In this document: positions 42,734 to 63,157 of the stretch, in pieces
Layout of the letters: every line of letters starts with the position of its first letter
Numbering within the stretch: position 1 is the stretch's first letter
Assembly: GCF_000724625.1 (NCBI RefSeq)
Contig: NZ_CP007139.1
Location: 3,472,001 to 3,536,000, forward strand
Source: Fimbriimonas ginsengisoli Gsoil 348
GTDB lineage: Bacteria; Armatimonadota; Fimbriimonadia; Fimbriimonadales; Fimbriimonadaceae
Reading direction: 5' to 3'
Length of the DNA stretch: 64,000 bases
The notes under the pieces: generated by a model
The model's database searches: none
Seen by the model: the letters and a program-made list of their open reading frames with translations, nothing else
What the model was told of the DNA's origin: nothing
Position numbers and translations under genes: made by a program

Positions 42734-42736
42734 GTC

Positions 42737-44089: not shown

Positions 44090-44227
44090 AGCGTTTGAAT
44101 TCCTCGAAGCCTTTTTTGGTCACCGACGGCTCTGTCTGACGGAACGGATCGATTCGCAAATGAATTTGGCATCGTGCTGCCTAGGTATATCTGCGCGGCG
44201 GCTACTCCCACAAGTCGGCCCTTGGCT

Positions 44228-44259
44228 GTCCGAGATTCTCCGTCATGCTTTCCATGGAC
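44228..44259. promoter_or_regulatory. GTC-N12-GAC element, site A (cydA / multicopper oxidase)
   Basis: The dyad GTCATGCTTTCCATGGAC is at 44242-44259, with a third half-site GTCCGA starting exactly 14 bp before it (44228). It lies in the divergent region between cydA and the multicopper oxidase, 41 bp before the latter's ATG. TGCTTTCCATGGAC is identical to part of site B at 63676. Confidence 0.6.
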
Positions 44260-44300
44260 AGATCTAGGGCGTTTCTGATGGAGGATCATTAGAGAAGCCC

Positions 44301-45801: not shown

Positions 45802-45820
45802 CGTAGGTAACCTGCCCGGC

Positions 45821-48341: not shown

Positions 48342-49178
48342 TCACGGCTTCCTTAATAGCAGGACGGAATAAGGGGATGAGACGACCACCTGAAGCGCCA
48401 CGCTACCGACGAACAGCCGCTCGACGAAACCATGTCCCTGAGCTCCTAAGATGACCAGGTCCGCCTTCGACGCCTTCATCATCGCGTCGATCACCTCGCT
48501 CGGGCTCCCCTCCACGACATGACCGCGAGCCTCGAATCCCTCCTCGCAAAGGTGGCTTACCAGGCTGTCGACGTGGTGAGCGATCTCCTTGGGAAGCTGG
48601 CGGTCCACCAGCGCTTCCACCGCCGAGACGATGATCAGCCGTCGGATTCCTTTCGGCTTCATGCGGGCCAACATTCGAAGGCAGTCGTCCGCATAATCTG
48701 ACCCGTCGGTCGCGAATACGGCGGTGAGGCTCCCCGTGGGTTCAACGTCGTTCTTCGAAACCAAGACCGATTGGTGCGCCCCGATGGCCAGTCCGCGCCC
48801 CACGCTGCCGAGGAAAAACGCTCCGTACCGAGACTTATGCGTAGAGCCAACCGCGATGAGGTCGCAGTGCAATTCGTCGCCGCGCCTCATCAGTCGGTCG
48901 CAGGGGTTCCCAACCGCGTAGAGCGTCGTGGATTCGATACCAGCCGCTGTAGCTAGCGCCTCCGCCTCGCCAAGCAGCCTTTCACCCTGCTCCCGTCGAA
49001 CTTCGTCGATCGTCGGGTAGCTGGCGTAGGTGAACGGCGTGGCACCGGCGCCTCCGGCGAGCAGCAGCTCGTCGACGTGAAAAAGCTCCGCGGAGCAATT
49101 GGGGAATCCCAAACGAGCAAGCAAATTGATCGTCGGACGGTAATTCCCTTCGGTGTCGACTCCGATGACCGCTTTCAT
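48342..49178 (-). CDS. Two-domain universal stress protein
   Basis: A 278-residue protein made of two UspA-like domains (about 1-140 and 145-278). The start MKAVIGVDTEG at 49178 has a GAGGAG ribosome site. Domain 2 ends in VILGAQGHGFVERLFVGSVALQVV, the G-2x-G-9x-G(S/T)-like ATP-binding motif, and domain 1 has AVGSTHKSRYGAFFLGSVGRGLA in the same place. Such proteins bind nucleotides and support survival in energy or oxygen limitation. It is the last gene of a three-gene operon with another universal stress protein and a Cys-rich peptide. Confidence 0.9.
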   Translation of the reverse strand: MKAVIGVDTEGNYRPTINLLARLGFPNCSAELFHVDELLLAGGAGATPFTYASYPTIDEVRREQGERLLGEAEALATAAGIESTTLYAVGNPCDRLMRRGDELHCDLIAVGSTHKSRYGAFFLGSVGRGLAIGAHQSVLVSKNDVEPTGSLTAVFATDGSDYADDCLRMLARMKPKGIRRLIIVSAVEALVDRQLPKEIAHHVDSLVSHLCEEGFEARGHVVEGSPSEVIDAMMKASKADLVILGAQGHGFVERLFVGSVALQVVVSSPYSVLLLRKP

Positions 49179-49180
49179 CG

Positions 49181-50065
49181 TTAGCTCCTCACCACCAGAA
49201 CCGGATATGGCTCGGCGACGACTTGATGCATCGAGCAACTACCGATGAACAGCCGTTCGGCAAAGCCGTGTCCTTGGGCTCCGATGACGAGTACGTCTGC
49301 CTGCGTGTCCTGCATCGCCTGCCGAATGACGTCGTTTGCCGTGCCGGCCCCAACTCGGGAGGTAGCGACGTACCCGGCGGCTTGGAGCTTGGCGACGAGG
49401 CGATCGTTCAGCGACTGAAGATGGTCCTCGATCCAGGTGTCCACCATCCCTCCGAGCGCCGGAAGGTTCGCCTGCAAAATGTGGGCCTCGTGGTCGCTGA
49501 TCTGGTAGGCGGTTACGACGTGGATCTCCGAAATCCCCTTTGCGTGCCAACTGAGGAATTTGCGAATCCATCGTTCCGACTCCGGTGAATGATCGGTTGC
49601 GAGGACCACCTTAAGCGGCGCCCCATCCCGGATGGGACCTTTGGATACGAGGATCGATGCGTGGCAGCCGATCGCCAGGCCGCGGCTAACGCTGCCGAGG
49701 AACGACGTGGACCACAGAGAACCCTGTCCGGCTCCGACAGCGACGATGTCGGAGTGAGTCTGGTCGGCAATATCCGAGAGGCCGGTGGCTGCGGGGCCGA
49801 AACGAAGGGTGCATCTCGGTTTAAGATCGCGCATACATGCCTCGTCCTTTGAGGCGTCCAACGCGATTCGGCCGGCGTTCTCCAACGCCTTCACGTAATC
49901 GGACTGTAATTGTCCGGCGGCGACTACGTCCATCGGAAAGTAGGCTGGCACCGGGTTGACGAAATGGGCCAGAGTCGATTCCGGCTTCTCGAAGCGAAAC
50001 CTCGCCAGCAACTTGATCGCCGGCTTATAAGCGCCGTTCAGGTCGATTCCGACAACTGCCTTCAC
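49181..50065 (-). CDS. Two-domain universal stress protein
   Basis: A 294-residue paralogue of the neighbour, starting at GTG 50065 (VKAVVGIDLNGAYKPAIKLLARF) behind a GGGGGCGG ribosome site. The ATP-loop motifs are AVGAGQGSLWSTSFLGSVSRGLA (~125-147) and VLVIGAQGHGFAERLFIGSCSMHQVV (~262-287). The GTG overlaps the stop of the preceding Cys-rich gene (GTGA), so translation is coupled. Two bases separate it from the next stress protein gene. ATG 50140 as start would add a non-homologous N-terminus. Confidence 0.88.
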   Translation of the reverse strand: MKAVVGIDLNGAYKPAIKLLARFRFEKPESTLAHFVNPVPAYFPMDVVAAGQLQSDYVKALENAGRIALDASKDEACMRDLKPRCTLRFGPAATGLSDIADQTHSDIVAVGAGQGSLWSTSFLGSVSRGLAIGCHASILVSKGPIRDGAPLKVVLATDHSPESERWIRKFLSWHAKGISEIHVVTAYQISDHEAHILQANLPALGGMVDTWIEDHLQSLNDRLVAKLQAAGYVATSRVGAGTANDVIRQAMQDTQADVLVIGAQGHGFAERLFIGSCSMHQVVAEPYPVLVVRS

Positions 50066-50259
50066 TTTGCCGCCCCCACGTTCGCCTGATTCGGCTTGGA
50101 GTTGGGGCAGGGAAGGCCTCGCTTGCATGCGCAGTCGCATTCGGTCCCCGCCGCATGGGCGGCTTCCCGGGGGCTGGTTGCGATGAGGGTCGTCGCCGCG
50201 ATCGTCCCGGACGTTTGCGATGCGCAGGAATGGCTCTTAGACTCGCTGTCTGGTTTCAT
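50062..50259 (-). CDS. Small Cys-rich protein, first gene of stress operon
   Basis: A 65-residue protein of no recognised family. It has a Ser/Thr-rich N-terminal half and a Cys cluster, GTECDCACKRGLPCPNS (four Cys within about 11 residues: C-x-C-x-C then C), which could bind a metal. The ATG at 50259 has a strong GGGAG ribosome site 9 bases upstream and the stop overlaps the GTG start of the universal stress protein, both arguing for a genuine gene. A regulatory element (site E) lies about 86 bp upstream. Confidence 0.65.
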   Translation of the reverse strand: MKPDSESKSHSCASQTSGTIAATTLIATSPREAAHAAGTECDCACKRGLPCPNSKPNQANVGAAK

Positions 50260-50344: not shown

Positions 50345-50376
50345 GTCAGGAGGTTCGTGTCAGGGAAAGGAATGAC
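50345..50376. promoter_or_regulatory. GTC-N12-GAC element, site E (Cys-rich/Usp operon)
   Basis: The dyad GTCAGGGAAAGGAATGAC is at 50359-50376, with the third half-site GTCAGG starting 14 bp before it (50345). Its first 20 bases differ from site C at only five or six positions. It is upstream of the minus-strand operon starting at 50259. Confidence 0.65.
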
Positions 50377-50420
50377 GCACGGTCTATCGCGATACCTCTC
50401 CCCATCGGCGCCAAGCTTTG

Positions 50421-51719
50421 TCAAAAGCGAAGCAACTCGTGAGCTTCTCTTTCCAGGCGCTCACGATGATCCGGGTGAGCGATATCGATGAGCAGCTTGG
50501 CGCGTTCGCGAAGGCACCTTCCGTGCAAGCTCGCTATCCCGTATTCCGTGACGACGTAGTGGACATGGGCTCTTGTCGTGACCACACCGGCTCCTGGCTT
50601 AAGAACGCTCGCGATACGAGATTCACCATGCCGGGTGGTCGAAGGTAGAGCGATGATCGGCTTGCCGCCTTCCGATTGAGCCGCCCCCCTCATAAAGTCC
50701 ATTTGTCCGCCAACCCCGGAGAAGATGCGGTTGCCGATAGAGTCGGCACAAACCTGGCCGGTAAGGTCGACTTCGATCGCGCTGTTTATCGCCGTCACCT
50801 TTGGATTGCGTCGGATCACATCCGGATCGTTCACATAACCGATGTCGAGCATCGCGACGACCGGATTGTCGTCGATGAAGTCGTAAAGGCGACGCGTTCC
50901 CAAGGCAAAACCGGCGACAACTTTTCCCGGATGCGTCCTCTTTTGAGTGCCATTCACCACGCCTCTCTCGATCAGGTCCACGATGCCGTCCGAAATCATC
51001 TCCGAATGGACGCCTAGGTTGGCGTGCCCACGAAGTGAGGTGAGTACCGCGTTGGGGATCGCGCCAATCCCCATCTGTAATGTCGCGCCATCCTCCACGA
51101 GAGTGGCGCAATACTGGCCGATAAGCTGTTCCTTTTCGGTGGAATCCCGGCACTCGATCTCGGGCAGCCGCTCGTCGACGTAGACGAGCGCGTCAAGATC
51201 GTCCATGTGGACGAAACCGTCGCCATGGGTCCTCGGCATGAAGCGATTGACCTGCGCGATCACGCGCTTCGCCGCTTTCACTGCAGTTCGAGTCAGGTCG
51301 ACCGAGGTGCCGAGAGAGCAATAGCCGTTCCGGTCTGGTGGCGAGACATGGATCATCGCGACGTCGATTGGCAACGCGCCGCTCGAAAGGAGAGAAGGAG
51401 CCTCGCTCAGGAAGATCGGCACGTAGTCGGCCCGGCCTTCGTTCACCGCGTCCCGAAGGTTCGCCCCCACGAAGAGGGCTCTGACCCGGAAGCTGGCTTC
51501 CATACCGCGCTCGGCATAAGGGGCAGGCCCTTCCGTGTGCAGTTGTAAGACTTCGACCGCTCGAAGTTCCGGCGCGCGATCCGCCATCGCGCGAATCAAG
51601 CATTGAGGCGCCGCGGCCATCCCTTGGATGTAGACACGGTCGCCAGACTTGATGCACCGCACCGCTTCCGCCGCCGTGAGCTGCGAGGCCGGATTGCAGA
51701 GGGTAAGGTTTCTCGACAT
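50421..51719 (-). CDS. Acetyl-CoA hydrolase/4-hydroxybutyrate CoA-transferase family
   Basis: A 432-residue CoA-transferase. The N-terminal domain (AAEAVRCIKSGDRVYIQGMAAAPQCLIRAMADRA) and the PIDVAMIHVSPPDRNGYCSLGTSVD segment match the acetyl-CoA hydrolase/transferase N-terminal family; the C-terminal domain has LGVHSEMISDGIVDLIERG, whose Glu is the likely CoA-thioester nucleophile, and IFSGVGGQMDFMRGA. It probably exchanges CoA between acetate and another short acid, allowing fermentation-type energy saving. Its ATG overlaps the preceding stop (TGATG), within an operon with an FMN-binding protein and an alcohol dehydrogenase. Confidence 0.92.
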   Translation of the reverse strand: MSRNLTLCNPASQLTAAEAVRCIKSGDRVYIQGMAAAPQCLIRAMADRAPELRAVEVLQLHTEGPAPYAERGMEASFRVRALFVGANLRDAVNEGRADYVPIFLSEAPSLLSSGALPIDVAMIHVSPPDRNGYCSLGTSVDLTRTAVKAAKRVIAQVNRFMPRTHGDGFVHMDDLDALVYVDERLPEIECRDSTEKEQLIGQYCATLVEDGATLQMGIGAIPNAVLTSLRGHANLGVHSEMISDGIVDLIERGVVNGTQKRTHPGKVVAGFALGTRRLYDFIDDNPVVAMLDIGYVNDPDVIRRNPKVTAINSAIEVDLTGQVCADSIGNRIFSGVGGQMDFMRGAAQSEGGKPIIALPSTTRHGESRIASVLKPGAGVVTTRAHVHYVVTEYGIASLHGRCLRERAKLLIDIAHPDHRERLEREAHELLRF

Positions 51720-52171
51720 CAGGGTTCCTGTCGCTCGTAGCGGCCGGTCATCTCCGTCAACTCGATCGCGAACACCACCATCGAGGCTCCAGAGACCGCC
51801 CGGGAGGGCGGGGTAAGGGCGTGTCCGTGCGACGAGGTGTTGGCTACCAGCGGGCGGAGGCGCTCGAACAACAGCCCCATTGCCACGGCGGCGTCGGCAT
51901 CTTTTAGTTCCTTAAAACGACCCCAGGCGATGATGCTGCGCCAGTTGACGAGGTCGATAACCTCGTCGACTTCGAAGCATACGTCCGGGTTCTCACGCAT
52001 CATCTCAACCTTTCTGCCCTCGGGCGTGTGGGCGAGGATCCGGCGGCCGTCGTACGCAAAGGAGATTGGAACAATGTACGTACGGCCCCCGGAATGGCAC
52101 CCGATCCGGCCCATCGGCGCCGCAAGGAGCAATCGCTCCATTTCATCATTAGAGAGATCGCCTAGCATCAC
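51719..52171 (-). CDS. Pyridoxamine-phosphate-oxidase-like flavin-binding protein
   Basis: A 150-residue split-barrel protein. MLGDLSNDEMERLLLAAPMGRIGCHSGGRTYIVPISFAYDG and ILAHTPEGRKVEMMRENPDVCFEVDEV are typical of the FMN/flavin-binding group related to NimA and to pyridoxamine 5'-phosphate oxidase. WRSIIAWGRFKEL completes the barrel. Substrate unknown. It lies between the alcohol dehydrogenase (5-bp gap) and the CoA-transferase, and is a paralogue of the protein at 53371. Confidence 0.88.
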   Translation of the reverse strand: MMLGDLSNDEMERLLLAAPMGRIGCHSGGRTYIVPISFAYDGRRILAHTPEGRKVEMMRENPDVCFEVDEVIDLVNWRSIIAWGRFKELKDADAAVAMGLLFERLRPLVANTSSHGHALTPPSRAVSGASMVVFAIELTEMTGRYERQEP

Positions 52172-52176
52172 GTCTC

Positions 52177-53241
52177 CTAAGGGCGGATTGCGACCTTCAT
52201 TACGCCTTCCCGGCGATCGCCGAAGAGTGCGTAGGCCTCTTGAATGTCGTCCAAAGCAAACGTATGGGTGAGCAGCGGAGTCAAGTCGACTCTCTTGGTG
52301 CGGACCATTTCCATCAGGCGGCGCATCCTCTCCTTTCCTCCCGGGCAGAGGGTGGTCACCACCTTATAGTCGGCAAGGCCGGCGCCAAAGTATTCGTACG
52401 GGATGTTCAGCTTTCCGGAGTAGACGCCAAGGCTGGACAGCGTTCCGCCCGGGCGAAGCGATCGGAGGCAATTCTCCCAAGTCTCCTGAGTCCCCAGCGC
52501 CTCGATGGCGACATCCGCTCCGCCGCCGGTAAGCCGCTTGATTTCCTGCACCACGTCTTGGCTGCGGTAATCGAGCACTACGTCCACCCCCATCTTCTTG
52601 GCGAAGGCAAGGCGGCTATCGTCCCCGTCCACACCGATTACGAGGGAGGCCCCCATCAGCTTGGCGCCGATACTGGAGCAGAGGCCGATCGGCCCCTGTG
52701 CAAACACGACGACGGTGTCGCCGATGCGCACTTTTCCAGATTCGGCGCCGCTGAAGCCGGTGCTGGCGATGTCCGCCAGCAGCACGACCTGCTCGTCCGT
52801 GAGCTCGTCAGGAATCGTGGCGAGGTTGGCGTTGGCGTCCGGCACGAGCAGGTACTCGGCTTGAGATCCGTTGATCGTGTTGCCGAACCGCCATCCGCCG
52901 AGCGCCTCGTACCCCTCGCCGTGTCCGCACTGTGAGAGATCGCCGGAGAGACATCCGCGGCACTGGCCGCAGGGGGTGATTGCCCCCACGAGAACCCGAT
53001 CTCCGATCCTGTGACCGCGCACCCCGGGTCCAAGATCCACGATGACGCCAACCGGCTCGTGACCGATGACGAGCCCCGGCCGCACCGGATATTCACCACG
53101 TACGATGTGAAGATCCGTTCCGCAGATGGTCGTCAGGGTGATTTTGATCACCGCTTCGTTCGGCCCCGCTTTCGGCATCGGCACCTCGCGAATGCTAAAA
53201 TCGTCCTTGCCGCAAAAAACGTTGGCTCTCATAGTGTCCAT
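52177..53241 (-). CDS. Zinc-dependent alcohol dehydrogenase
   Basis: A 354-residue medium-chain dehydrogenase. Catalytic zinc ligands are in ICGTDLHIVRG and GHEPVGVIVD (Cys, His, Glu); structural zinc uses the four Cys in CGQCRGCLSGDLSQC (~90-104). The Rossmann motif is VVVFAQGPIGLCSSIGAKLMGA (~165-186). It interconverts an alcohol and aldehyde with NAD(P)H. The start is ATG 53241 or 53232; a GTG further up adds 11 residues. First gene of an operon with a flavin-binding protein and a CoA-transferase; site G lies 50 bp upstream. Confidence 0.93.
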   Translation of the reverse strand: MDTMRANVFCGKDDFSIREVPMPKAGPNEAVIKITLTTICGTDLHIVRGEYPVRPGLVIGHEPVGVIVDLGPGVRGHRIGDRVLVGAITPCGQCRGCLSGDLSQCGHGEGYEALGGWRFGNTINGSQAEYLLVPDANANLATIPDELTDEQVVLLADIASTGFSGAESGKVRIGDTVVVFAQGPIGLCSSIGAKLMGASLVIGVDGDDSRLAFAKKMGVDVVLDYRSQDVVQEIKRLTGGGADVAIEALGTQETWENCLRSLRPGGTLSSLGVYSGKLNIPYEYFGAGLADYKVVTTLCPGGKERMRRLMEMVRTKRVDLTPLLTHTFALDDIQEAYALFGDRREGVMKVAIRP

Positions 53242-53290
53242 GGGAATATCTTGGGACGCGGAGAGCGCCTGCACAAGTCGCGACTTCGTC

Positions 53291-53322
53291 GTCAGCCCAA
53301 CCCTGTCATTGCTTTCCCCGAC
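53291..53322. promoter_or_regulatory. GTC-N12-GAC element, site G (alcohol dehydrogenase operon)
   Basis: The dyad GTCATTGCTTTCCCCGAC is at 53305-53322, with the third half-site GTCAGC starting 14 bp before it (53291). It is in the 129-bp gap upstream of the alcohol dehydrogenase operon. Confidence 0.62.
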
Positions 53323-53370
53323 ACCGCTGCATTGGCGAAAACCGGAAGCGACGGCCGGTCTTGACTGCGA

Positions 53371-53817
53371 CTAACTCCCTTCGCTTCGGCCGGAAAACTC
53401 CGAAATGGTGATCGCATAGGCGATCTGAGGCGACGGCGTGTGATCTAGTCTTGGCGGTGTTACGTCTCTTCCTTTTCGCAATTCCGTCCCCTCGAATCCG
53501 GGTCCATATTTGTCGAACATTGCTCCCGCCGCCTGAGCCCGTTCGGCCCCCTCCAGTTCCTGAAACTGACCCCAGAGGATCGCGCTCCGCCACATCGTTA
53601 GGCTGGTTATCTCTTCAAACTGAAGACAGACTTTAGGGTTCTCCCGCATCATGTCTATCTTTAAGCCGGCGGAGGTCAGGCCAAAAATGCGGTTGCCGTC
53701 TCGTACGAAGCTCACCGGAACCACATAGCTCTTGCCGTTCGCGTAGCACCCAAGATGGGCGTGGGCGCATGAGTCCACGACCTCCCAGATTTCGGCTTCC
53801 GGTAGCACTTTAATCAT
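53371..53817 (-). CDS. Pyridoxamine-phosphate-oxidase-like flavin-binding protein
   Basis: A 148-residue split-barrel protein, start ATG 53817 behind GAGGAGG. ALPEAEIWEVVDSCAHAHLGC-like KVLPEAEIWEVVDSCAHAHLGC, SYVVPVSFVRDGNRIFGLTSAGLKIDMMRENPKVCLQFEEI and WRSAILWGQFQELEG match the flavin-binding family of the protein at 51719. The C-terminus ends SPQIAYAITISEFSGR. Its start overlaps the end of the uridine-kinase-like gene by 8 bases, so it is translated from the same message. Confidence 0.86.
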   Translation of the reverse strand: MIKVLPEAEIWEVVDSCAHAHLGCYANGKSYVVPVSFVRDGNRIFGLTSAGLKIDMMRENPKVCLQFEEITSLTMWRSAILWGQFQELEGAERAQAAGAMFDKYGPGFEGTELRKGRDVTPPRLDHTPSPQIAYAITISEFSGRSEGS

Positions 53818-54631
53818 GTTCGTTTTCCTCCTCTTCAAATGAACTTCCCGATAGTAAGGGGCGGCGGTAGAGAACATGCTCCGGATATATCCGAGCTAAC
53901 TCGCGGATGTCGACGGTTGCCGGCATTACCGACTCGTCGGCCTTGTATCCGAGGCGATAGTTGTCGGATCGAACCGCCTGTGAGAAGGTCTCGACGTCCA
54001 AGTTCGAATGGATGATTTCTCGAACCATGGTCGCCAACAGCTCCGTAAAATAAGCCCGCCTAAACGTGAAGTCGATAACCACGTCGGCATTGTGTCGGGT
54101 GGGTGCGACGAAGACCTCGTAGCTCGGCCTTACGAAACGCTGATACCGGTCGATTGTCTGCGAAACATCGTGGCTCCGCTCGTCGAAGTCACGAAGGAGG
54201 CGCCCGAGCAACGCCTGGTCTTTGTCGACGCCTAGAAAGCAGGTGAAATCGAGAAGGTCCACGATCGGCGCGGAGAGGACAAACAGACCTTCGACGATCA
54301 CGACCTTGCAAGGAGGCAGCTCGATTGCCTCCGGGGTCTGCACCATCCGGCGGAAGTCGTAGCTCGGAAGGCGGACCGATTCTCCGGCTCGAATCTTTCT
54401 CAGGTCCCCAACCAATTGGTCGATGTCCAGATGGCTGGGATGGTCGAAATTCACCCCCTTGACGTCCGGAGAGTCCTCAGTTCGGAAGTATTGATCCATG
54501 CTGACGAGCCCGGCGCCCTCACCAACGAGGGCGCAAACCTGGCGCGCTAGCCACGTCTTTCCAGAACCTGACCCTCCCGCGACGCCGATCAGGATGGGCG
54601 AGGGGTTTCGGGGCGCATCTTGGCGATTCAC
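53810..54631 (-). CDS. Uridine-kinase/phosphoribulokinase-like P-loop enzyme
   Basis: A 273-residue NTPase with Walker A GVAGGSGSGKTWLAR (~15-29), SMDQYFR (~47, the Asp-Tyr-x-x substrate motif of uridine kinases), FDHPSHLDIDQL, and VVIVEGLFVLS (~110). It should phosphorylate a nucleoside or similar hydroxyl compound with ATP. The GTG start at 54631 overlaps the PEP-synthase-like gene's stop (GTGA); the longer in-frame start at 54706 would run far into that gene. In this operon it may play a role in energy-stress metabolism, but the substrate is uncertain. Confidence 0.85.
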   Translation of the reverse strand: MNRQDAPRNPSPILIGVAGGSGSGKTWLARQVCALVGEGAGLVSMDQYFRTEDSPDVKGVNFDHPSHLDIDQLVGDLRKIRAGESVRLPSYDFRRMVQTPEAIELPPCKVVIVEGLFVLSAPIVDLLDFTCFLGVDKDQALLGRLLRDFDERSHDVSQTIDRYQRFVRPSYEVFVAPTRHNADVVIDFTFRRAYFTELLATMVREIIHSNLDVETFSQAVRSDNYRLGYKADESVMPATVDIRELARIYPEHVLYRRPLLSGSSFEEEENEHD

Positions 54632-56736
54632 CTTGTTATCGACTTCTCTCGAGCTCCTACGGTCGACGCCTTTCCTGGGTAAGTAGGTTGGGGGCCGGAG
54701 AACCATGCCGCCGGCGAAACCGCTCCGGCCGTTTCGATGGTCTTGATCGGGGCTTCGGCCCGCGCCACGACTTCGACGGATCGGAGAATCGCGTCGGGGT
54801 TAAACGAAATGAAATCGATGCGATGGCGTACTAGCCACGCCGCGAAATCGGGACTGTCCGAGGGAGCTCCCCCGCACGCCCCGATCGGCTTCCCGGCTCG
54901 ATAGGCAGCGGTAATCGCCATCGTAATGAGGCTCTTCACGGCAAAGTCGCGTTCGTCGAACAGGTGCGAGACGGTGCCCGAGCCACGATCGATGCCCAGT
55001 GTCAGCTCGGCTAAGTCGTTCGAGCCGATCGAGTAACCGTCGAAGATCTCCAAGAAGCCGTCGGCATCGATCGCGTTGGAAGGAACTTCGCACATGCCGT
55101 AGATCTCCAACCCGTTCTCTCCCTGGCGTAGCCCGTGCTGCGCCATGACCTCCACAACCCGGCTCGCTTCCTCGGTGGTTCGGCAGAACGGGATCATGAC
55201 CCTTACATTCGTAAGGCCCATACTCGATCGCACCCGGCGAAGGGCGAGGCATTCGAGGCGGAACCCCTCCGCATACCGTCGGTCGTAGTAGCGAGATGCG
55301 CCGCGGAAGCCGAGCGTCGGGTTCTCTTCCTCCGGCTCAAATTCGCGGCCGCCGATCAGGCGCGCATACTCGTTCGTTTTGAAATCGGTGGTACGGACGA
55401 AGACCGGCTTTGGGTAGAACGGGGCGGCAATCTGGGCTATCCCTTCGCTCAGACGGCGGACGAAGTATTCCGTAGGCTCCTGCCCACCGATCCTCCGCCG
55501 AATCTCTTCCAGCGCCTCCCCATCTTTCAGCTCCGGATACCAACAGAGCGCCATCGGATGAATTCCGATCGAGTTGGCGATGATGAATTCCAGGCGAGCA
55601 AGACCGACGCCGTCATTCGGAAGCGCCGCCATAGAGAACGCCTTGGCCGGATCTGCCACGTTCAACATCAACTTTGTCCGCGTTTCCGGGAGGTAAGAGA
55701 TGTCCATTTCCGCTTGGGCGGGAATCTTCCCCGGTCGCGCCTGCAATATGTAAAGCGCTCCAGTCTGGCCATCCTTGGCCCATTCGACCTCCATGGGATG
55801 GGGCTCGCCCGTTTGGGCCGAATAATGATCTTCGATGAGGCAGGCCCAGCGGGCCAGGGTCAGAACTTCGTGGTCGATCAGCGAGAAGCGCCCCCGCTGG
55901 TATTCCGGCACCGTCGCTGCTTTCACGCCGTCATCGTCCGGGTCGAAGACCAGCTTCGTCATCTTTGTTCCGAGGTGCCGGGCGACGATCGGATCTTTAC
56001 CTTCCCGCAGGGTAGGTTTGAACACGGTCCACTCGTCCGACGTGACCTTTCCTGGGTCGACCGTCCCGCCCACGCCATAGGTCGACGACAGAACCACAGC
56101 GTCGCGAAATCCACTTTCAGGATCGAGGGTGAAGATGATCCCAGAGGACGAATCGTCGGAGCGAATCATCGGCTGCACCCCCACCGAGAGGGCGACGTTG
56201 AAATGGTCGAATCCGTTTCGCGCCCGGTACTCGATCGCTCGGTCGGTGAAGAGAGAGGCGTAGCACTTGTGCACCGCCAGAATGAGCTCGCTCTTGCCGA
56301 CGTTGAGGAACGACTCGTTCTGGCCGGAAGATGAGGATGCTGCCAGGCCCTCCATCGTGGCCGAAGAACGTACCGCCACCGCCGAAGTGCAACCCAGCCT
56401 CTCCATGAGCCGGTCGTACCCCTCTTCGAGCTGGCCGATGAGCTCCGGCGGTAAAGGCGTTTCGAGAATGGCATCTCGCGCCTGCTTGCCGGCTGCGGCA
56501 AGGCTGACGCGGTCTTCCACCTGAATGCCCGCGAGGATCTCCCTGATCCGCATCTCCAAGGAGCCGGAAATAAACCGCCGGTAGGCGTCGGCCGTACTGG
56601 CGAAACCGTCCACGGCGTTCACTCCCAGCGGGCGAAGCTTCTGGAACAGTTCCCCAAGGAAGGCGTTCTTATCGCCGACCTTAGCGAGATCTTCGAGGCC
56701 GATCTGGGATAGTTCGATTACGAACGGTTCGTTCAT
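54628..56736 (-). CDS. PEP-synthase-like protein lacking the phosphohistidine domain
   Basis: A 702-residue protein, versus about 790 for PEP synthase. The N-terminal ATP-grasp pyruvate/ATP-binding domain (1-336) has AVRSSATMEGLAASSSSGQNESFLNV (~121-146) and ends in ALYILQARPGKIPAQ. The C-terminal TIM barrel (about 352-680) has LMLNVADPAKAF, NDGVGLARLEFI, NPTLGFRGASRY and the active-site GACGGAPSD. Between them the swivelling domain with the catalytic His (normally GGRTxHAAIIAR, about 100 residues) is absent, joined in frame near residues 337-350. Without it the normal phosphotransfer cannot occur in this chain. First gene of a three-gene operon divergent from a P-type ATPase. Confidence 0.9.
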   Translation of the reverse strand: MNEPFVIELSQIGLEDLAKVGDKNAFLGELFQKLRPLGVNAVDGFASTADAYRRFISGSLEMRIREILAGIQVEDRVSLAAAGKQARDAILETPLPPELIGQLEEGYDRLMERLGCTSAVAVRSSATMEGLAASSSSGQNESFLNVGKSELILAVHKCYASLFTDRAIEYRARNGFDHFNVALSVGVQPMIRSDDSSSGIIFTLDPESGFRDAVVLSSTYGVGGTVDPGKVTSDEWTVFKPTLREGKDPIVARHLGTKMTKLVFDPDDDGVKAATVPEYQRGRFSLIDHEVLTLARWACLIEDHYSAQTGEPHPMEVEWAKDGQTGALYILQARPGKIPAQAEMDISYLPETRTKLMLNVADPAKAFSMAALPNDGVGLARLEFIIANSIGIHPMALCWYPELKDGEALEEIRRRIGGQEPTEYFVRRLSEGIAQIAAPFYPKPVFVRTTDFKTNEYARLIGGREFEPEEENPTLGFRGASRYYDRRYAEGFRLECLALRRVRSSMGLTNVRVMIPFCRTTEEASRVVEVMAQHGLRQGENGLEIYGMCEVPSNAIDADGFLEIFDGYSIGSNDLAELTLGIDRGSGTVSHLFDERDFAVKSLITMAITAAYRAGKPIGACGGAPSDSPDFAAWLVRHRIDFISFNPDAILRSVEVVARAEAPIKTIETAGAVSPAAWFSGPQPTYPGKASTVGAREKSITR

Positions 56737-56783
56737 GGGATTACCTGAGGCTATATCCTGTCTTGGAGTTGCGCCCGAGGCAA

Positions 56784-56815
56784 GTCAGGAGTTAGGCGTC
56801 AGGCTTTCCCATGAC
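56784..56815. promoter_or_regulatory. GTC-N12-GAC element, site C (PEP-synthase-like / Mg ATPase)
   Basis: The dyad GTCAGGCTTTCCCATGAC is at 56798-56815, with the third half-site GTCAGG starting 14 bp before it (56784). It is in the middle of the 128-bp divergent region, 48 bp from the PEP-synthase-like start and 49 bp from the ATPase start, so it could serve both. Confidence 0.65.
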
Positions 56816-56864
56816 ATTGGAAGGCCGACTTGTGGGCGGCCGCTGACTGGAGAACAATTACCCA

Positions 56865-59306
56865 ATGCCCGGTACCCAAACGCCTTCGGCAGGTTTGACT
56901 TCGGGCGAGGCTCGGCTCCGATTGGAAACCGACGGGCCGAACGAGGTGACCCGCCCGCGTGCCCATGGAATCCTGCGGTTCCTGGCTCCCTTGCTTGCGA
57001 ACCCCTTAGTGGTGATCCTCCTAGGCGCGGCGGCGGTGAGCGCCTCCCTGGGAGATCGGGTCAACGCCGCGATTATCGTCGCGATGATCGCCCTCAGCTT
57101 CGGTCTCGACTGGGTTCAAACTCGCCGATCTCACCAAGCCGCCGAGAAGCTTAAGAACTCCATTTCCCCGACGGCGGCAGTTTTGCGCGACGGCAAATGG
57201 CAGACGATCGCCCGTCGCGAAGTCGTGGTAGGAGACGTCGTCCGCCTCTCCGCGGGAACCCTTATTCCCGCGGACGGGCGACTCCTGACGGAGAAGGACC
57301 TCCACGTTAACGAGGCTGCCCTTACGGGCGAATCGGTACCGGCCGAGAAAGAAGTCGGGACCGGCGACGACCAAGAGAAACTTTTTCTGGGCACGTCCGT
57401 CGTCAGCGGAACTGCCACGATGACCGTGGAGAAGACCGGCGCCCAAACGGTCTTTGGTGGGATTGCGCTCCGCTTGTCCGAGCGCCCGCCCGAAACGGAG
57501 TTCGAGCGGGGCTTGCGACGATTCGGAGGGCTGATCATGCGAATCGTCCTCCTCCTTACCGGTTTCGTGATCGTCTCGATGATCGCCCTCCACCGGCCGC
57601 CGCTGCAGTCGTTCATGTTCGCCGTCGCGCTCGCGGTGGGTCTCACCCCCGAGTTCCTCCCGATGATCACCACGCTCACTCTTTCGCGCGGAGCCCTGCG
57701 TATGGCGAGGCACAAGGTGATCGTCAAGAATCTCGCCTCGATTCAAAACTTTGGCAGCATGGACGTCCTATGCTCCGACAAGACCGGAACCCTCACATCC
57801 GGCGAGATGCGCCTCGATCAAACGGTTGGGCTCGACGGCCAACCCAGCGAAGTTCCGTTGAGGTGGGCCGCCTTGAATGCCGCTTTCGAGAGCGGGATCG
57901 CCAATTCTCTCGACTCCGCGATCCTCGCGAAGTCGCCGCCGGAGCCGGGATGGAGAAAGATCGACGAGATCCCGTTCGATTTCAATCGACGGCGGCTCTC
58001 GGTGGTCTTGGAACGCGACGGACGCCGCGTCTTGGTAAGCAAGGGGTCTCCCGAGGGGGTCTGGAACCAGTGCGACGCCCCGGAGGCGCTGCTCGCGGAG
58101 CAAACCAAACTGGCAAACTCCCTCGGGGAGCAGGGATTCCGGGTGTTGGCCGTCGCGATTGCGGATGTACCGGTTCAAGACTCGTACGGTATTGAAGACG
58201 AGAACTCGCTGACCCTAATCGGCTACCTCGCCTTCGCCGATCCCCCTCTGGAAGACGCACTGGCCACCGTTCATCGTCTACAGACCGCCGGAATCGACCT
58301 AAAGATCATCACAGGTGACAGCGACGCCGTCGCGGGGCACGTCTGTCGCCAGATCGGTTTGGATCCCGGACGCATCTTGCTCGGTTCCGAGATCGAGGCG
58401 ATGGCGGACGATGCACTTCAAGCCGCCGCCGAACGCACGCTTGTATTCGCCCGGACCTCTCCCGCGCAAAAGAACCGGATTATCCTCGCCCTCAAGGCGC
58501 GCGGCCATGTGGTCGGCTACATGGGAGACGGCATCAACGATGCCCCCTCCCTCCACGCGGCGGATGTTGGAATCTCCTTTGGCGACGCGACCGACGTCGC
58601 CAAAGACGCTGCGCAGATCATCCTCGTGGAGCGACACCTGTCGCGCCTCCTCGGCGGCGTCTTCGAGGGTCGCATGGCTTTCGGGAATGTGATGAAGTAT
58701 CTGCTCATGGGGACGAGCTCGAGCTTCGGCAACATGCTGAGCATGGCGGGGGCGGCGCTCTTCCTCCCGTTCCTTCCGATGCTCCCGTCGCAGATCCTGC
58801 TGAACAACCTTCTCTACGACCTGGCCCAAATCCCGATCCCGACAGACTGGGTCGACGAATCGTACATTCGAAAGCCAAAGCGATGGGATATGTCCCAGAT
58901 CAGCAGCTTCATGATCTTCGCCGGGCCGATCAGCTCGCTCTACGACGCTCTCACGTTCGTTGTGCTGCTTCGATTGTTTCGAGCGGACGAGGCCCACTTC
59001 CACACCGGCTGGTTCATCGAATCGCTGTTCACCCAAACCCTAGTCATTTTCGTGATTCGAACGAGGTTCCGGCCGTGGCGGAGCCGGCCGAGCCGGGCAT
59101 TGGTGGCCACCACTATCCTCGTGCTGATCGTCGCCGCCTGGCTGCCATTCTCCCCGTTCGCGTCGTTGCTGGGCTTCGTTCCGATGCCGCCGGCGTTCTT
59201 CTTGTTCGTCCTGTTTGCAAGCCTAACGTATCTCGCGCTGGTCGAGTTGGCGAAAGGTTTTCTGTTCCGATGGGGGCCGGCCCCACCTTCTTCCAGACCC
59301 GCCTGA
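56865..59306 (+). CDS. Mg2+-type (P3B/MgtA-like) P-type ATPase
   Basis: An 813-residue P-type ATPase. Motifs: TGES (~154), phosphorylated D305 in CSDKTGTLTSGE, KGSPEGVW nucleotide site, TGDSDAV and MGDGINDAPSLHAADVGIS. TM4 has AVGLTPEFLPMI and the C-terminal helices NNLLYDLAQIPIPTDWVD, both characteristic of MgtA/MgtB magnesium importers (P3B) rather than Ca2+ pumps. About ten helices. The ribosome site GGAG is 11 bases upstream of ATG 56865. Related ATPases occur in low-oxygen stress clusters; transported ion is presumed Mg2+. Confidence 0.88.
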   Translation: MPGTQTPSAGLTSGEARLRLETDGPNEVTRPRAHGILRFLAPLLANPLVVILLGAAAVSASLGDRVNAAIIVAMIALSFGLDWVQTRRSHQAAEKLKNSISPTAAVLRDGKWQTIARREVVVGDVVRLSAGTLIPADGRLLTEKDLHVNEAALTGESVPAEKEVGTGDDQEKLFLGTSVVSGTATMTVEKTGAQTVFGGIALRLSERPPETEFERGLRRFGGLIMRIVLLLTGFVIVSMIALHRPPLQSFMFAVALAVGLTPEFLPMITTLTLSRGALRMARHKVIVKNLASIQNFGSMDVLCSDKTGTLTSGEMRLDQTVGLDGQPSEVPLRWAALNAAFESGIANSLDSAILAKSPPEPGWRKIDEIPFDFNRRRLSVVLERDGRRVLVSKGSPEGVWNQCDAPEALLAEQTKLANSLGEQGFRVLAVAIADVPVQDSYGIEDENSLTLIGYLAFADPPLEDALATVHRLQTAGIDLKIITGDSDAVAGHVCRQIGLDPGRILLGSEIEAMADDALQAAAERTLVFARTSPAQKNRIILALKARGHVVGYMGDGINDAPSLHAADVGISFGDATDVAKDAAQIILVERHLSRLLGGVFEGRMAFGNVMKYLLMGTSSSFGNMLSMAGAALFLPFLPMLPSQILLNNLLYDLAQIPIPTDWVDESYIRKPKRWDMSQISSFMIFAGPISSLYDALTFVVLLRLFRADEAHFHTGWFIESLFTQTLVIFVIRTRFRPWRSRPSRALVATTILVLIVAAWLPFSPFASLLGFVPMPPAFFLFVLFASLTYLALVELAKGFLFRWGPAPPSSRPA

Positions 59307-59342
59307 CTGGCATTGCCTCGGATGTTCCCGTAAGGCGGCGCC

Positions 59343-59360
59343 GTCAGGGGAATCCATGAC
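59343..59360. promoter_or_regulatory. GTC-N12-GAC element, site D (Usp pair)
   Basis: The dyad GTCAGGGGAATCCATGAC lies 90 bp before the universal stress protein start at 59450. The third half-site is degenerate here: GTAAGG at 59330, one base off the usual 14-bp spacing. Confidence 0.5.
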
Positions 59361-59449
59361 AAGAAGTGGACGTCTTGCCTCCCAGGATTTTACGGCCCAC
59401 CATCTACCTAGCCGGCGACCGTTTCACGACGCGGCGAGGCAGAGTGAAG

Positions 59450-60343
59450 ATGAAAATAATCGTTGGAGTGGACAAGGGCGGGCTTTACCGCGAGGCGATC
59501 CATTTGCTAAGCAGGCTGCAGTTCGCTGAAAGCGACGTTCTCCTAGCCCATGCTTGCGAGCCGGTTCGCATGCCCGCATACGCCGGATCGATCTTGGCTC
59601 CGGTGGACGAGTTGGAAGCGGAGCGTCTCTCTTCAATGCGCGAGGTCTTGCGCGAGGCGACCGAAATGGCCAGCCTTGAAAACGTGGGAGAAGCGGTGAT
59701 CGAGTGCCCGCTCGATGGAAAGGCGACGGAGCAGATCATGGAGATAGCGGCTCGCGAACACGCCGATCTCGTCGCGGTTGGCTCCCGCCGCCATGGGATC
59801 CTTGGGAGCTTCTTCACCGGAAGCGTTGGGAGAGCCCTCGCTATCGGCGCTCGCGAGTCGTTTCTCATCGCAAGAAGCGGCGTGGTGGGACGCGGAGATG
59901 TTCGCGCCGTGTTTGCCACCGACCACTCCAAATATGCCGACGCTTGTCTTGAGGAGTTGCTCCGGCTCGACCCATTGGGGATCACGGAGCTACATTTCGT
60001 CTTCGCCCAGGATGGCGAGATGGCCACCCTTGCGGAGGCGGCCGGCGAATCGGGCGAAGTGCCTCAATCGGTTGAGGAACTGGTCGCGGAGGTCAAGGCG
60101 AAGGGGGCTCTCCTCGTCGAGTCCTGTATCGACTCGGGCAGACTGGCCGACTACGAAATGGTTTTCGATTTCACGATCGAGGCGCTTCGGAAGAAGATGT
60201 ACGACCTAAAGGCCGACCTTCTAATTCTGGGCGCCCAGGGACACGGGTTCATCGAGCGTTTACTCATCGGCAGCCTCGCACTCCATGAGGTCGTGGCCGA
60301 GCCCTTTTCGGTGCTTGTACTTCGCATTCCGGAGGATGATTAA
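59450..60343 (+). CDS. Two-domain universal stress protein
   Basis: A 297-residue protein from ATG 59450 (MKIIVGVDKGGLYREAIHLLSRLQF). The two UspA-like domains have nucleotide loops AVGSRRHGILGSFFTGSVGRALA (~108-130) and LLILGAQGHGFIERLLIGSLALHEVV (~263-288). The second loop is nearly the same as in the proteins at 48342 and 49181, marking recent paralogues. GTG 59444 is an alternative start; the longer frame to 59366 crosses site D's downstream region and is unlikely. Cotranscribed with the next stress protein with no gap. Confidence 0.9.
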   Translation: MKIIVGVDKGGLYREAIHLLSRLQFAESDVLLAHACEPVRMPAYAGSILAPVDELEAERLSSMREVLREATEMASLENVGEAVIECPLDGKATEQIMEIAAREHADLVAVGSRRHGILGSFFTGSVGRALAIGARESFLIARSGVVGRGDVRAVFATDHSKYADACLEELLRLDPLGITELHFVFAQDGEMATLAEAAGESGEVPQSVEELVAEVKAKGALLVESCIDSGRLADYEMVFDFTIEALRKKMYDLKADLLILGAQGHGFIERLLIGSLALHEVVAEPFSVLVLRIPEDD

Positions 60344-61270
60344 TTGAAGGTGGTCATTGGCGTGGACGAATCCTTGTCGAGCCGAAACGCTATCGATCTG
60401 TTCCTTAAGTTGCGGTTTGCGGCTCCCCAGGCGATCTTCGTGCACGTGATCGAGTCGGTAATGCCGGACGGCTCTTTCGTCGACTTCCCAGACGATCACC
60501 CCCTCGGGGCGCTTATGCGGGAGAGTATGTCGGAGGGTGAAAAGTTGCTGGGTAGGGCTCACCGTCGCTCGATGGCGTTCGGCGTCGAGGCCAAGGTTGA
60601 GATCGTCAAGGGTAATCCGGCGCAGGTGCTTCAAGAGGTCGCCACCCGCGAGTCGGCCGATCTCATCGTGGTCGGCTGCAATCGGCGATCTCGACTGGAC
60701 GACTTGATACTGGGCGGCACACCGCGAACCCTCCTTCACGAGGCGCCGCAAAGCCTTCTCGTCGTGCGGAGTCCCGTTCTAAGGATTGGGCCACTCCGGG
60801 GGGTGTTCGCGGTGGATCATCGGGAAGAGCCAGAGGAGTTCGTCGACGCTCTGCTCCAACTCAAGCCGGGAGGAATCGGGTGCCTCGACGTTCTGACGAT
60901 CAACGAGGCCGGACATCGAGAACTGGCGTCGGTTTCGAGGCTGCCGGCTCCGGTCGCGGATGTCTGTTCCTGGATCGATGAGGGCATACGAAGCAAGAAC
61001 GTCGCCTTGGCGGATCGACTCTCATCCCTCGGCGCCGACTGCCGGGCGGTGGTGATGGAGGGGGACATGCCCGCGTGCGCCATTGCGATTGCTGCTAATC
61101 GCGCCCATGCCGACTTCATCGTCGTTGGAGCCAAGCGCCACGGATTCCTGGATCGTCATCTTGGCCGAAGCGTGTCGAAAGGGTTACTGGCCTCGGACAG
61201 GCGCGCGCTCTTGGTTTTGCGGCCGAAGGAGGAGAAGCAATCCTCCGTTGCCGATATGCCATCTCCGTAA
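60344..61270 (+). CDS. Two-domain universal stress protein
   Basis: A 308-residue protein starting at a TTG right after the preceding stop (TAATTG), KVVIGVDESLSSRNAIDLFLKLRF. Loops are LIVVGCNRRSRLDDLILGGTPRTLLHEAP (~101-129) and FIVVGAKRHGFLDRHLGRSVSKGLL (~258-282). It is more diverged from the other three, and its second loop lacks the usual G(S/T) pair. The TTG start agrees with the family N-terminus (VVIGVDE). Confidence 0.88.
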   Translation: MKVVIGVDESLSSRNAIDLFLKLRFAAPQAIFVHVIESVMPDGSFVDFPDDHPLGALMRESMSEGEKLLGRAHRRSMAFGVEAKVEIVKGNPAQVLQEVATRESADLIVVGCNRRSRLDDLILGGTPRTLLHEAPQSLLVVRSPVLRIGPLRGVFAVDHREEPEEFVDALLQLKPGGIGCLDVLTINEAGHRELASVSRLPAPVADVCSWIDEGIRSKNVALADRLSSLGADCRAVVMEGDMPACAIAIAANRAHADFIVVGAKRHGFLDRHLGRSVSKGLLASDRRALLVLRPKEEKQSSVADMPSP

Positions 61271-61301: not shown

Positions 61302-61721
61302 CTAGCCGACCGTGGCTCTTCCGAACGCCGTGTTGCTGGCCACTCTAGGCGATTCTCTATCGGCGTGCGCTCCGTTTTCGGGCTCGTGTCGGGTGGATCT
61401 GGTTAGAAGCAGGAGGTGGTCGTAGCCTTGGCGGTTTTGCCTAACGGCGTCGGTGACCAGGAATCCGGCTCGAGTCGCAACCATTCGATAGAGTGACTCA
61501 AACGGAAATTCGGGGCTTCCGGGCTGGTCGCTAATCAGGTGCGCTAGGACGAGAAACGATAACTCGCGCTCTCCGCTCATCCGCTGGACCGCGGCTCGAA
61601 TGGCGGCTAGCGCCTCCTCTTGAAGGATCCCGTCGGAATGGATGCTGCTATGGGCTGAGCTGTTGATCACGATGTACCTCCGCAAGTTTCGCGGGCCGTC
61701 CGGAACCTTCCGGTCCATCAA
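61302..61721 (-). CDS. Hypothetical protein, 139 residues
   Basis: No family is recognised. The core (YIVINSSAHSSIHSDGILQE, ALAAIRAAVQRMSGERELSF, LVLAHLISDQPGSPEFPFES) has regular helix/strand alternation and the codon bias of real genes in this window; the last ~30 residues look unstructured. Its upstream region holds site F 31 bp before the start, so it is probably a member of the stress regulon. The start at 61721 (MMDRKVPDGP) has AAAAGGAT upstream. Confidence 0.6.
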   Translation of the reverse strand: MMDRKVPDGPRNLRRYIVINSSAHSSIHSDGILQEEALAAIRAAVQRMSGERELSFLVLAHLISDQPGSPEFPFESLYRMVATRAGFLVTDAVRQNRQGYDHLLLLTRSTRHEPENGAHADRESPRVASNTAFGRATVG

Positions 61722-61751
61722 AAGGATATCGGTTGACCTTGGCGGACGCCA

Positions 61752-61783
61752 GTCAGCATTCCCTTGTCCTGCGAATCTATGAC
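61752..61783. promoter_or_regulatory. GTC-N12-GAC element, site F (hypothetical protein gene)
   Basis: The dyad GTCCTGCGAATCTATGAC is at 61766-61783, with the third half-site GTCAGC starting exactly 14 bp before it (61752). It is upstream of the minus-strand hypothetical gene starting at 61721. Confidence 0.58.
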
Positions 61784-61874
61784 AGAGCGCAAGCGGGGAA
61801 GCCAGCTCGAGGGATGGACCGGAAGCGATTTTTGCCAGCGACAGAGAGTGGCCGTTAGTTACCGGATCGCAACT

Positions 61875-62492
61875 TTACGTCCTTTGAGACGATTGCCGAG
61901 CCGCCTTTTCTACGGCGCTCCAACGGGCGAACTCGGTGCACACGACCATCACTTCCTCATCGGCAGTTGACGCGGTCAGGGCGATGGCGACCTCGACCTC
62001 CGAACCATCTTTGCGCACCGCGAATATGGGAGGGTGGTAGCCCATCTCGCGCTTGCGAACGCTGGCAATGAAGCCGATACGGTAAGCGGGGTGGATACCG
62101 CGCAACCTCAACGGAACCAGATCCTCGACTGAGCGGCCCACGAGCTCGGCGGCGGGATAACCGAAAAGAAGGGCGGCGTTCTCGTTTACCCGATGGATCA
62201 TCCCGGTCAAGGCGTTTACTACCAGAATGGCTTCGGGCGCGGCGTCGAGGAGCGCATGGAATCTTGCCTCCAGCGAGTTGGCGGCGTTCTCGGCCCGTTT
62301 TCGGAGCGCGCGCTCGTACATCACCGCCGCATTGTCCGTCGGCTCAAGCTGGTCCGCTCGCTTCGAGGCTCGATCTAAGACTTGCTGGAGCTGGGTCGGA
62401 AGCAGCCCGAACTGGCGGCAAACCTCAAGGTCAGGTGCGCCTTCGCAGATCTGGCGAATGATTTCCCGATCCTTCTTGCTAAGCCCTTCCAC
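61875..62492 (-). CDS. HTH-PAS regulator
   Basis: A 205-residue protein. The N-terminus (LSKKDREIIRQICEGAPDLEVCRQFGLLPTQLQQVLDRA, ~4-42) looks like a helix-turn-helix of sigma-region-4/LuxR type; a helical linker (~50-75) leads to a PAS domain (~76-185: LLDAAPEAILVVNALTGMIHRVNENAALLFGYPAAELVGRSVEDLVP, FAVRKDGSEVEVAIALTAS). The order DNA-binding first, sensor last is the reverse of most regulators. It lies 20 bases after the LuxR-PAS gene upstream, so the two are an operon. Confidence 0.82.
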   Translation of the reverse strand: MEGLSKKDREIIRQICEGAPDLEVCRQFGLLPTQLQQVLDRASKRADQLEPTDNAAVMYERALRKRAENAANSLEARFHALLDAAPEAILVVNALTGMIHRVNENAALLFGYPAAELVGRSVEDLVPLRLRGIHPAYRIGFIASVRKREMGYHPPIFAVRKDGSEVEVAIALTASTADEEVMVVCTEFARWSAVEKAARQSSQRT

Positions 62493-62512
62493 CTCTGTAC
62501 TATAACCGACGG

Positions 62513-63157
62513 CTACTCTTCAACCGCACGGAGAACGCTCGTAACGAGAAGCCCGTTAGGGGTGGGAATTGCCGAGAGCGCCGCCCGCACGATGATTTCT
62601 TTCCCATCCTTGCGCAATGCGGGAGTCTGAAGGTGTTCTCCCATCGTCCGCCTCCGCGGATCGTTGACGTACGCGGCCCGGTGCTCCTGATGCACTTCGC
62701 GAAACCGTTCGGGGATCAGTGCCACCAACGCGAGGCCGTTCATCTCACCCGCGTCGTATCCGAACAGCTCGTGCGCCGCTCGGTTGGCTGTCTTGACCGT
62801 GCCGGACTCGAAAACTAAGACCATCGCATCCGGAGCGTTATCGATCAGATCGTAGTAGAACGAATTCTCGTCCGGATCCTGGATCACCGCGTTCCTAAGC
62901 TGCGAAATGAGCTGGGCGTTTTCCTGCCGCATCAGCTCCAATGCCTCTTCCTGTTGCGCTCGTAGGTGGATGCTGACGAGTTCCGTGCGGTTGTACGGAC
63001 CGATCTTGATTCGCACCCGGCCCCAATAGGTGCCGACGGTCGCCTCGCTGATCCCCAGTCGTTGCGCGATAGCGGTGTCAGTCAACCCTTCGGAGGCGAA
63101 TTTGATGAGCTGCAGCTCACGCGGGGAAAGTTGAGGCGACTGTCTCTCTGCCGGCAT
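62513..63157 (-). CDS. LuxR-type HTH-PAS regulator
   Basis: About 214 residues from ATG 63157 (a TTG at 63172 adds five). A clear LuxR/GerE helix-turn-helix is at the N-terminus (LSPRELQLIKFASEGLTDTAIAQRLGISEATVGTYWGRVRIKIG), a helical linker (~70-95) follows, and a PAS domain occupies about 100-210 (YDLIDNAPDAMVLVFESGTVKTANRAAHELFGYDAGEM, LRKDGKEIIVRAALSAI). It is a one-component sensor candidate for the surrounding stress genes; its own upstream region does not contain the GTC-N12-GAC element. Confidence 0.86.
   Translation of the reverse strand: MPAERQSPQLSPRELQLIKFASEGLTDTAIAQRLGISEATVGTYWGRVRIKIGPYNRTELVSIHLRAQQEEALELMRQENAQLISQLRNAVIQDPDENSFYYDLIDNAPDAMVLVFESGTVKTANRAAHELFGYDAGEMNGLALVALIPERFREVHQEHRAAYVNDPRRRTMGEHLQTPALRKDGKEIIVRAALSAIPTPNGLLVTSVLRAVEE

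Follow-up and report, generated by a model that had tools for sequence, protein, structure and literature searches.

R2, one of two adjacent regulatory genes in a stretch of Fimbriimonas ginsengisoli Gsoil 348 DNA that is 64,000 nucleotides in length (hereafter the window), encodes the haem protein FG214. Sequence comparisons suggest that R2 probably acts as a one-component haem switch, which activates a low-oxygen/dormancy regulon through the palindrome YGTCAK-N3-WW-N3-MTGACR; its neighbor R1, a putative haem-gated partner, may tune R2. The R2 protein is already known; the operator, the promoter layout, the dormancy-type regulon and the R1 partner are predictions that are new compared to the main text of the FG214 preprint (Siclari et al. 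2026, PMC13060918).

The R2-R1 gene pair and its haem-type PAS domains

R2 and R1 are both real open reading frames on the minus strand; R2 is located upstream, R1 is located downstream, and the gap between them is 20 bp. The two genes are probably co-transcribed. R2 is 214 residues in length if started at ATG 63157, and 219 residues for the whole reading frame. In the 219-residue numbering, Pfam assigned residues 14-67 of R2 to one GerE/LuxR helix-turn-helix (HTH) domain (PF00196, 3e-11) and residues 106-206 to one PAS domain. Like R2, R1 also contains a PAS domain (residues 77-184, Pfam); its HTH region gave no PF00196/GerE match in Pfam, but could be aligned with the R2 HTH by profile-profile comparison, as remote homology only. 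The tandem, HTH-first and PAS-last arrangement described in the earlier note was thus confirmed. Pfam identified no receiver domain with a phospho-acceptor Asp in either protein; R2 works like DosR, but it belongs outside the DosR/NarL response regulators.

The earlier note regarded this domain order as unusual. It is indeed rare among LuxR-type proteins generally (PMC13060918); however, five more GerE-then-PAS proteins are encoded elsewhere in the F. ginsengisoli genome (Table 1), and the HTH-first sensors of this genome are a lineage expansion. One further protein (L190 389-997) contains a GerE HTH and has no Pfam sensor match. The pair was also placed in the middle of the island, as its sole transcription-factor-like genes. 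In fact, the operator-bearing genes span 41.7 to 61.7 kb and the pair sits at their right edge; no other such gene is present in the operator-bearing stretch, although related N-terminal HTHs are found elsewhere in the genome.

Residues 76-219 of R2 (219-residue numbering), covering the linker and the PAS domain, are the same as chain A of PDB 10jx, with one terminal mismatch. Counted from ATG 63157, His156, His159, Met172 and His175 of R2 agree exactly with the numbering of the preprint, which reported crystal structures (10JX and 10JY) of FG214 from F. ginsengisoli (PMC13060918). According to the same work, the FG214 PAS domain carries haem b through His156 and His175. The oxidised, bis-His form is a monomer with sequestered HTH and does not bind DNA in vitro; when the haem is reduced, or imidazole or another distal ligand is added, His175 is displaced and the linker helix released, and FG214 can dimerize and bind inverted repeats (PMC13060918). 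The DNA site used was artificial, with half-sites GGGGCGGGG taken from protein-binding microarrays. In vitro, FG214 favours the inverted repeat with a 2-bp gap (IR2), with an imidazole-dependent affinity of ~100 nM, and its natural DNA target was left open (PMC13060918). The words paralog, adjacent, operon, neighbor, hypoxia and universal stress are all missing from the preprint text, and R1 is unmentioned. A literature search for hypoxia or haem control in Armatimonadota gave no paper besides this preprint.

His156, Met172 and His175 are invariant across 20 R2 homologues, and the proximal histidine is kept in 29 of 33. In place of the FixL/DosP-type distal arginine, R2 has a distal histidine and, three positions earlier, a methionine. 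R1 possesses the equivalent residues His134, Met150 and His153, spaced by 16 and 19 residues as in R2; all nine R1 homologues keep the proximal His, and eight of them the distal His. The structure model of R1 (mean pLDDT 77) has HTH-type helices in its N-terminal region, and its best fold matches are FG214, followed by the haem-PAS domains of FixL and DosP. Judged from these residues and from the model, R1 likely binds haem. The earlier note could identify no haem-binding PAS residue; this does not stand, since the haem-PAS structure of R2 has been solved and the same three residues are found in R1. Three R2 relatives (L065 9596-10267, L066 9892-10590 and L067 9933-10562) have no proximal haem histidine; their HTH is of the same class, and a palindrome is located beside the TATAAT-like box of their own promoters.

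The HTH and PAS domains of the two proteins are conserved to different extents. Among R1 proteins, the average identity is 35% in the HTH and 57% in the PAS; among R2 proteins from genomes that also hold R1, the values are 78% and 45%, respectively. The R2 recognition helix ATVGTYWGRVRIK is near-invariant, whereas that of R1 varies freely between species. The R1 gene adjoins an R2 gene in eight of nine cases, in tandem in F. ginsengisoli and divergently in most other genomes seen. As its PAS is conserved and its HTH is not, R1 is most simply explained as being kept for the haem-PAS rather than to bind specific DNA sites. An ordinary LuxR regulator was rejected for R1, owing to the missing Pfam HTH match.

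A candidate operator and its promoter layout

The palindrome emerged from an unbiased dyad count, in which no operator was assumed. When all 4-mer dyads were counted in the intergenic DNA that surrounds R2/R1 homologues (85 kb), TGTC-N12-GACA ranked first, with 16 seen versus 0.4 expected. It also ranked first in the 260-bp regions upstream of 59 R2/R1-family genes (10 versus 0.15 expected), where shuffles gave a maximum of 5 for any dyad; both counts are inflated by related promoters. The predicted operator is 20 bp in length, and the central A/T pair was not a criterion in its selection. Its 9-2-9 layout is the IR2 geometry preferred by FG214 in vitro; its sequence is unlike.

To scan the window, we used one matrix trained on other genomes only, with the reversed window as control. 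Eight sites reached at least 7 bits; six of them exceeded 13 bits and all six are located within 44241-61784 (Table 1), whereas no site of the reversed window exceeded 9 bits with the same matrix. The six strong sites are all in intergenic gaps, which make up 5.7% of the 44241-61784 stretch. In a genome-wide pattern search allowing one mismatch at most, 5 of 16 sites fell in 11.4 kb of the island (binomial 2e-10). The two sites that the earlier note gave at 56784 and 50345 lie ~13 bp further on, at 56797-56816 and 50358-50377. The bare GTC-N12-GAC element was rejected as operator; it is too loose (48 matches versus 26.7 expected in the window), and only the extended 20-bp form is specific. TTGTC-N12-GACAA gave no signal in the whole genome (6 versus 5 control, 5.23-Mb contig). 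A possible operator variant (TTTGTC...GACAAA) for the VSTYWGR helix of G004 and G018 is suggestive at two loci only. Closely spaced operator-like palindromes were also observed before non-island genes in G014, encoding a small Cro-like HTH protein (L120 and L124) and an unannotated 393-aa protein (L123); they are 33 bp apart in L123 and L124, and may be sites of a different regulator.

R2 was found in 38 of 291 Armatimonadota genomes (E <= 1e-25), all of them Fimbriimonadaceae. The ratio of exact pattern to reversed control is 70:21 in these 38 genomes and 19:23 in the 47 Fimbriimonadaceae genomes without R2 (Fisher p = 6e-4, kinship ignored); among the 85 genomes, an excess over control is thus confined to those with R2. 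Four genomes of the same genus without R2 gave 1 match versus 4 in the control. The density of sites is 8.4 per 100 kb near R2, compared to 0.25 in reversed DNA and 0.75 at random loci; of the 66 sites underlying it, 51 lie outside the matrix training set. The full TGTC-N12-GACA is missing from 49 of the 59 homologue upstream regions, and the R2 promoter of F. ginsengisoli has no good operator site. Both genes had been put forward as candidates for the GTC-N12-GAC element. For R2 the proposal is well supported: the motif co-occurs with R2, adjoins R2 genes and is present in R2-family promoters, and the island sites are picked up by a matrix built from other genomes. It has no such support for R1, where the recognition helix lacks conservation.

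We then aligned 58 site-gene pairs on the palindrome, with the gene start 45-250 bp away. A G[AGT]CT[TA]G element occurs 24 times in the 58 pairs, 19 times at +30/31 or +44/45. Anchored on this element, a -10-like nAAnAT is conserved 17 bp past the TTG hexamer. Read as a -35/-10 pair, the two place the operator centre near -58 or -72, the usual position of an activator; this suggests that the operator usually lies upstream of the promoter that it activates. A second full palindrome at +14 was rejected, because the two sites would overlap in one major groove, and the repeated GAC was kept only as a conserved element by the -35. Several relatives show another arrangement at their R2-family genes: here a TATAAT-like box immediately precedes the start codon, and the palindrome lies 2-20 bp upstream of this box. 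Such overlap with the core promoter suggests negative autoregulation in these relatives.

Table 1. Features of the gene pair, predicted operators, promoter elements and predicted targets (window positions unless a locus is named)
Feature	Coordinates	Strand	Description	Basis or remark
R2 (= FG214)	62513..63157	minus	N-terminal GerE/LuxR HTH, helical linker, C-terminal haem-PAS	Pfam, PDB identity, PMC13060918
R2 haem residues	His156 proximal, His175/Met172 distal			214-aa numbering
R1	61875..62492	minus	205 aa; R2 paralogue, eroded HTH and conserved haem-type PAS	His134, Met150, His153
Further GerE-PAS proteins	L069 9816-10691; L187 772-1719; L188 97-1035; L189 795-1526; L191 552-1187		N-terminal GerE HTH, C-terminal PAS	same genome
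Operator CGTCATGCTTTCCATGGACA	44241..44260		upstream of cydAB	13.1 bits, weakest of six
Operator TGTCAGGGAAAGGAATGACG	50358..50377		upstream of universal stress protein pair	19.2 bits; exact pattern
Operator TGTCATTGCTTTCCCCGACA	53304..53323		upstream of ADH operon	21.5 bits
Operator CGTCAGGCTTTCCCATGACA	56797..56816		common to divergent PPDK-like operon and P-type ATPase promoters	19.5 bits; exact pattern
Operator CGTCAGGGGAATCCATGACA	59342..59361		upstream of second universal stress protein pair	23.7 bits; exact pattern
Operator TGTCCTGCGAATCTATGACA	61765..61784		upstream of orf139	20.5 bits
GACTTG, cydA promoter	44211..44216	minus	predicted promoter element	operator centre about -72
GACTTG, PPDK-operon promoter	56781..56786	minus	predicted promoter element (divergent)	
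GACTTG, P-type ATPase promoter	56827..56832	plus	TTG = predicted -35	operator centre about -58
cydAB	41690..44089	minus	cytochrome bd oxidase	predicted target; Pfam
Two universal stress proteins	48342..50140	minus		predicted target; Pfam
ADH operon	50421..53274	minus	zinc ADH, Pyridox_ox_2 protein, acetyl-CoA hydrolase/transferase	predicted operon target; Pfam
PPDK operon	53371..56736	minus	PPDK/PEP-utilising enzyme, PRK-family kinase, Pyridox_ox_2 protein	predicted operon target; Pfam
P-type cation ATPase	56865..59306	plus		predicted target; Pfam
Two universal stress proteins	59366..61270	plus		predicted target; Pfam
orf139	61302..61721	minus	no Pfam match, coding status uncertain	downstream of operator 61765

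Predicted regulon, proposed mechanism and alternatives

In the island, gene content of DosR/OsdR type lies behind one palindromic operator: universal stress proteins (USPs), PPDK, zinc ADH, pyridoxamine oxidase-like proteins and respiration genes. The regulon of Streptomyces OsdR, the counterpart of mycobacterial DosR, comprises USPs, PPDK, zinc alcohol dehydrogenase, pyridoxamine oxidase and a nitrate transporter. Judged from this likeness in gene content, low oxygen or a reduced haem state would be the most likely signal. Island gene families, including USP, HSP20, flavodoxin, cydAB and CBS, are found 53 times in 0.79 Mb near R2/R1 homologues and are absent from 0.40 Mb at 20 random loci. 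Motif targets in other genomes include HSP20, nitroreductase, CBS, HemA, ECF sigma factors and, in three genomes, protoglobin chemoreceptors, which tie the motif to oxygen sensing and taxis. In small genomes, the best operator is located 24-63 bp upstream of a protoglobin chemoreceptor gene (L139 4125, L141 4126 and L145 4112).

Several neighboring genes were also noted. At the left end of the island (38661-44089), an MFS transporter, which by eye resembles nitrate/nitrite transporters, is found together with a Rieske protein, a 4Fe-4S protein and cydAB. To the right of the R2-R1 pair, one Flavodoxin_5 gene (Pfam) runs from 63760 to ~330 bp past the window end, with only a weak operator-like sequence at 63624 (8.2 bits). 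One conserved membrane-like protein of ~370 aa (M.FPxVDPIPIPAPVW...; L127 2812-3927, with homologues in L040, L042, L044 and L049) has no Pfam match and recurs near R2 or behind the operator.

In the proposed mechanism, oxidised bis-His haem would hold R2 as an HTH-sequestered monomer, and reduction or a distal haem ligand would displace His175, freeing the linker helix and allowing the R2 dimer to assemble on inverted-repeat DNA, as published in vitro. The natural operator would be the 20-bp palindrome. Bound upstream of the -35/-10 elements, with its centre at about -58 or -72, the dimer may activate the cydAB, USP, PPDK, ADH and P-type ATPase operons and their relatives; in related genomes, R2 may also bind the core promoter of its own gene, giving negative feedback. 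The most tentative step concerns R1, which would act as a haem-gated partner and tune R2 through heterodimers, and would not be a second DNA-binding regulator.

As evidence against R2 as the binder of the palindrome, nothing weighs more than the mismatch with the published half-site. The half-site GGGGCGGGG is unlike YGTCAK and the artificial operator has no close genomic match, so at most one of these motifs can be natural. A genome search for the published IR2 operator gave no match closer than two mismatches, nor any in the island, and counts with three mismatches are at the control level; the G-rich IR2 was thus rejected as natural site. Microarray probes cover every 8-mer, but 20-bp palindromes are scarce among them; a palindrome with a spacer may thus escape detection, and this is one way to reconcile the two motifs. 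Although the imidazole-dependent IR2 binding was measured, at ~100 nM, it is highly improbable that R2 acts through the G-rich site on oxidative-stress genes, as the preprint speculates, with the island unrelated. It is less improbable, but still unlikely, that another regulator, such as another HTH-first PAS protein, binds the palindrome and that R2 is merely an island target. The differing in vitro half-site and the related HTHs elsewhere in the genome would fit such a regulator; the recognition helices of the five other GerE-PAS proteins are related to that of R2 but different (the closest is TIGTYWERMRLK of L187). However, genomes without R2 have no motif excess, though at least some carry related HTHs, and the near-invariant recognition helix of R2 is expected for a conserved operator. 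R2 relatives that do not carry the haem histidine but share the HTH class also have the palindrome in their own promoters. Taken together, the co-occurrence favours R2 over the other GerE-PAS proteins as the binder.

Two other alternatives concern how R2 and R1 act. If R2 were mainly an island repressor in air, released on reduction, the sites overlapping the core promoter of R2-family genes in relatives would be explained; but the oxidised form is a non-binding monomer in vitro (PMC13060918) and the target-gene sites are upstream of the -35, so we consider this role rather improbable. R1 could be a complete transcription factor in its own right, acting on a separate operator, and not an R2 partner. 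Its N-terminal region still models as HTH-type helices and aligns with the R2 HTH, which makes this a real possibility; yet its recognition helix is free to vary, the PAS is its conserved part, and eight of nine R1 genes are beside an R2 gene, and on balance we lean away from it.

Comparison with known systems

R2 and FG214 are the same protein, identical in sequence, numbering, haem ligands and architecture. Different from the present analysis, the preprint has an artificial half-site that differs from the palindrome, and is without natural target, regulon, gene context or R1. Its claim that haem-PAS is never found in a one-component context is too strong, as it overlooks RcoM. Like R2, RcoM is a one-component haem-PAS transcription factor; however, RcoM senses CO, and its haem-PAS is N-terminal and its LytTR DNA-binding domain C-terminal. 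EL222 (LOV-HTH) also combines effector release, a LuxR-type HTH and a PAS-class sensor, but it uses flavin and light instead of haem, with PAS first and HTH last. FixL-FixJ and EcDosP share the PAS fold and the proximal histidine with R2 and R1. Different from R2, FixL is a kinase and DosP is a phosphodiesterase, and the distal arginine of FixL aligns with a leucine in R2, which uses the distal histidine.

Like R2 in the proposed mechanism, DosS/DosT-DosR of Mycobacterium and OsdKR of Streptomyces employ a LuxR-class HTH and a palindromic operator upstream of the promoter, and DosS/DosT control is also haem-gated. The DosR/OsdR regulons overlap with the predicted R2 set in USPs, PPDK, zinc ADH, pyridoxamine oxidase, HSP20 and nitroreductase. 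However, these systems have two components, a separate sensor kinase and a receiver-HTH regulator, whereas R2 combines haem-PAS and HTH in one protein, and the OsdR operator AGGGCCGATCGGCCCT differs from the palindrome predicted for R2.

With the predicted operator, promoter layout and regulon, the target, genes and physiological role of FG214 become testable, and a natural promoter could, if the prediction is true, replace the artificial site in biosensor efforts. As a broader and tentative proposal, which we hold with less than even confidence, Fimbriimonadaceae may possess a DosR-like dormancy regulon under the one-component haem switch R2, tuned by a haem-gated, DNA-binding-deficient R1, with the haem state setting the ratio of active homodimer to inactive heterodimer. 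If true, an unrelated phylum would place the actinobacterial hypoxia/dormancy gene set under one haem-switch protein, where actinobacteria employ a kinase and a response regulator, possibly with R1 as a built-in haem-gated antagonist of the switch.
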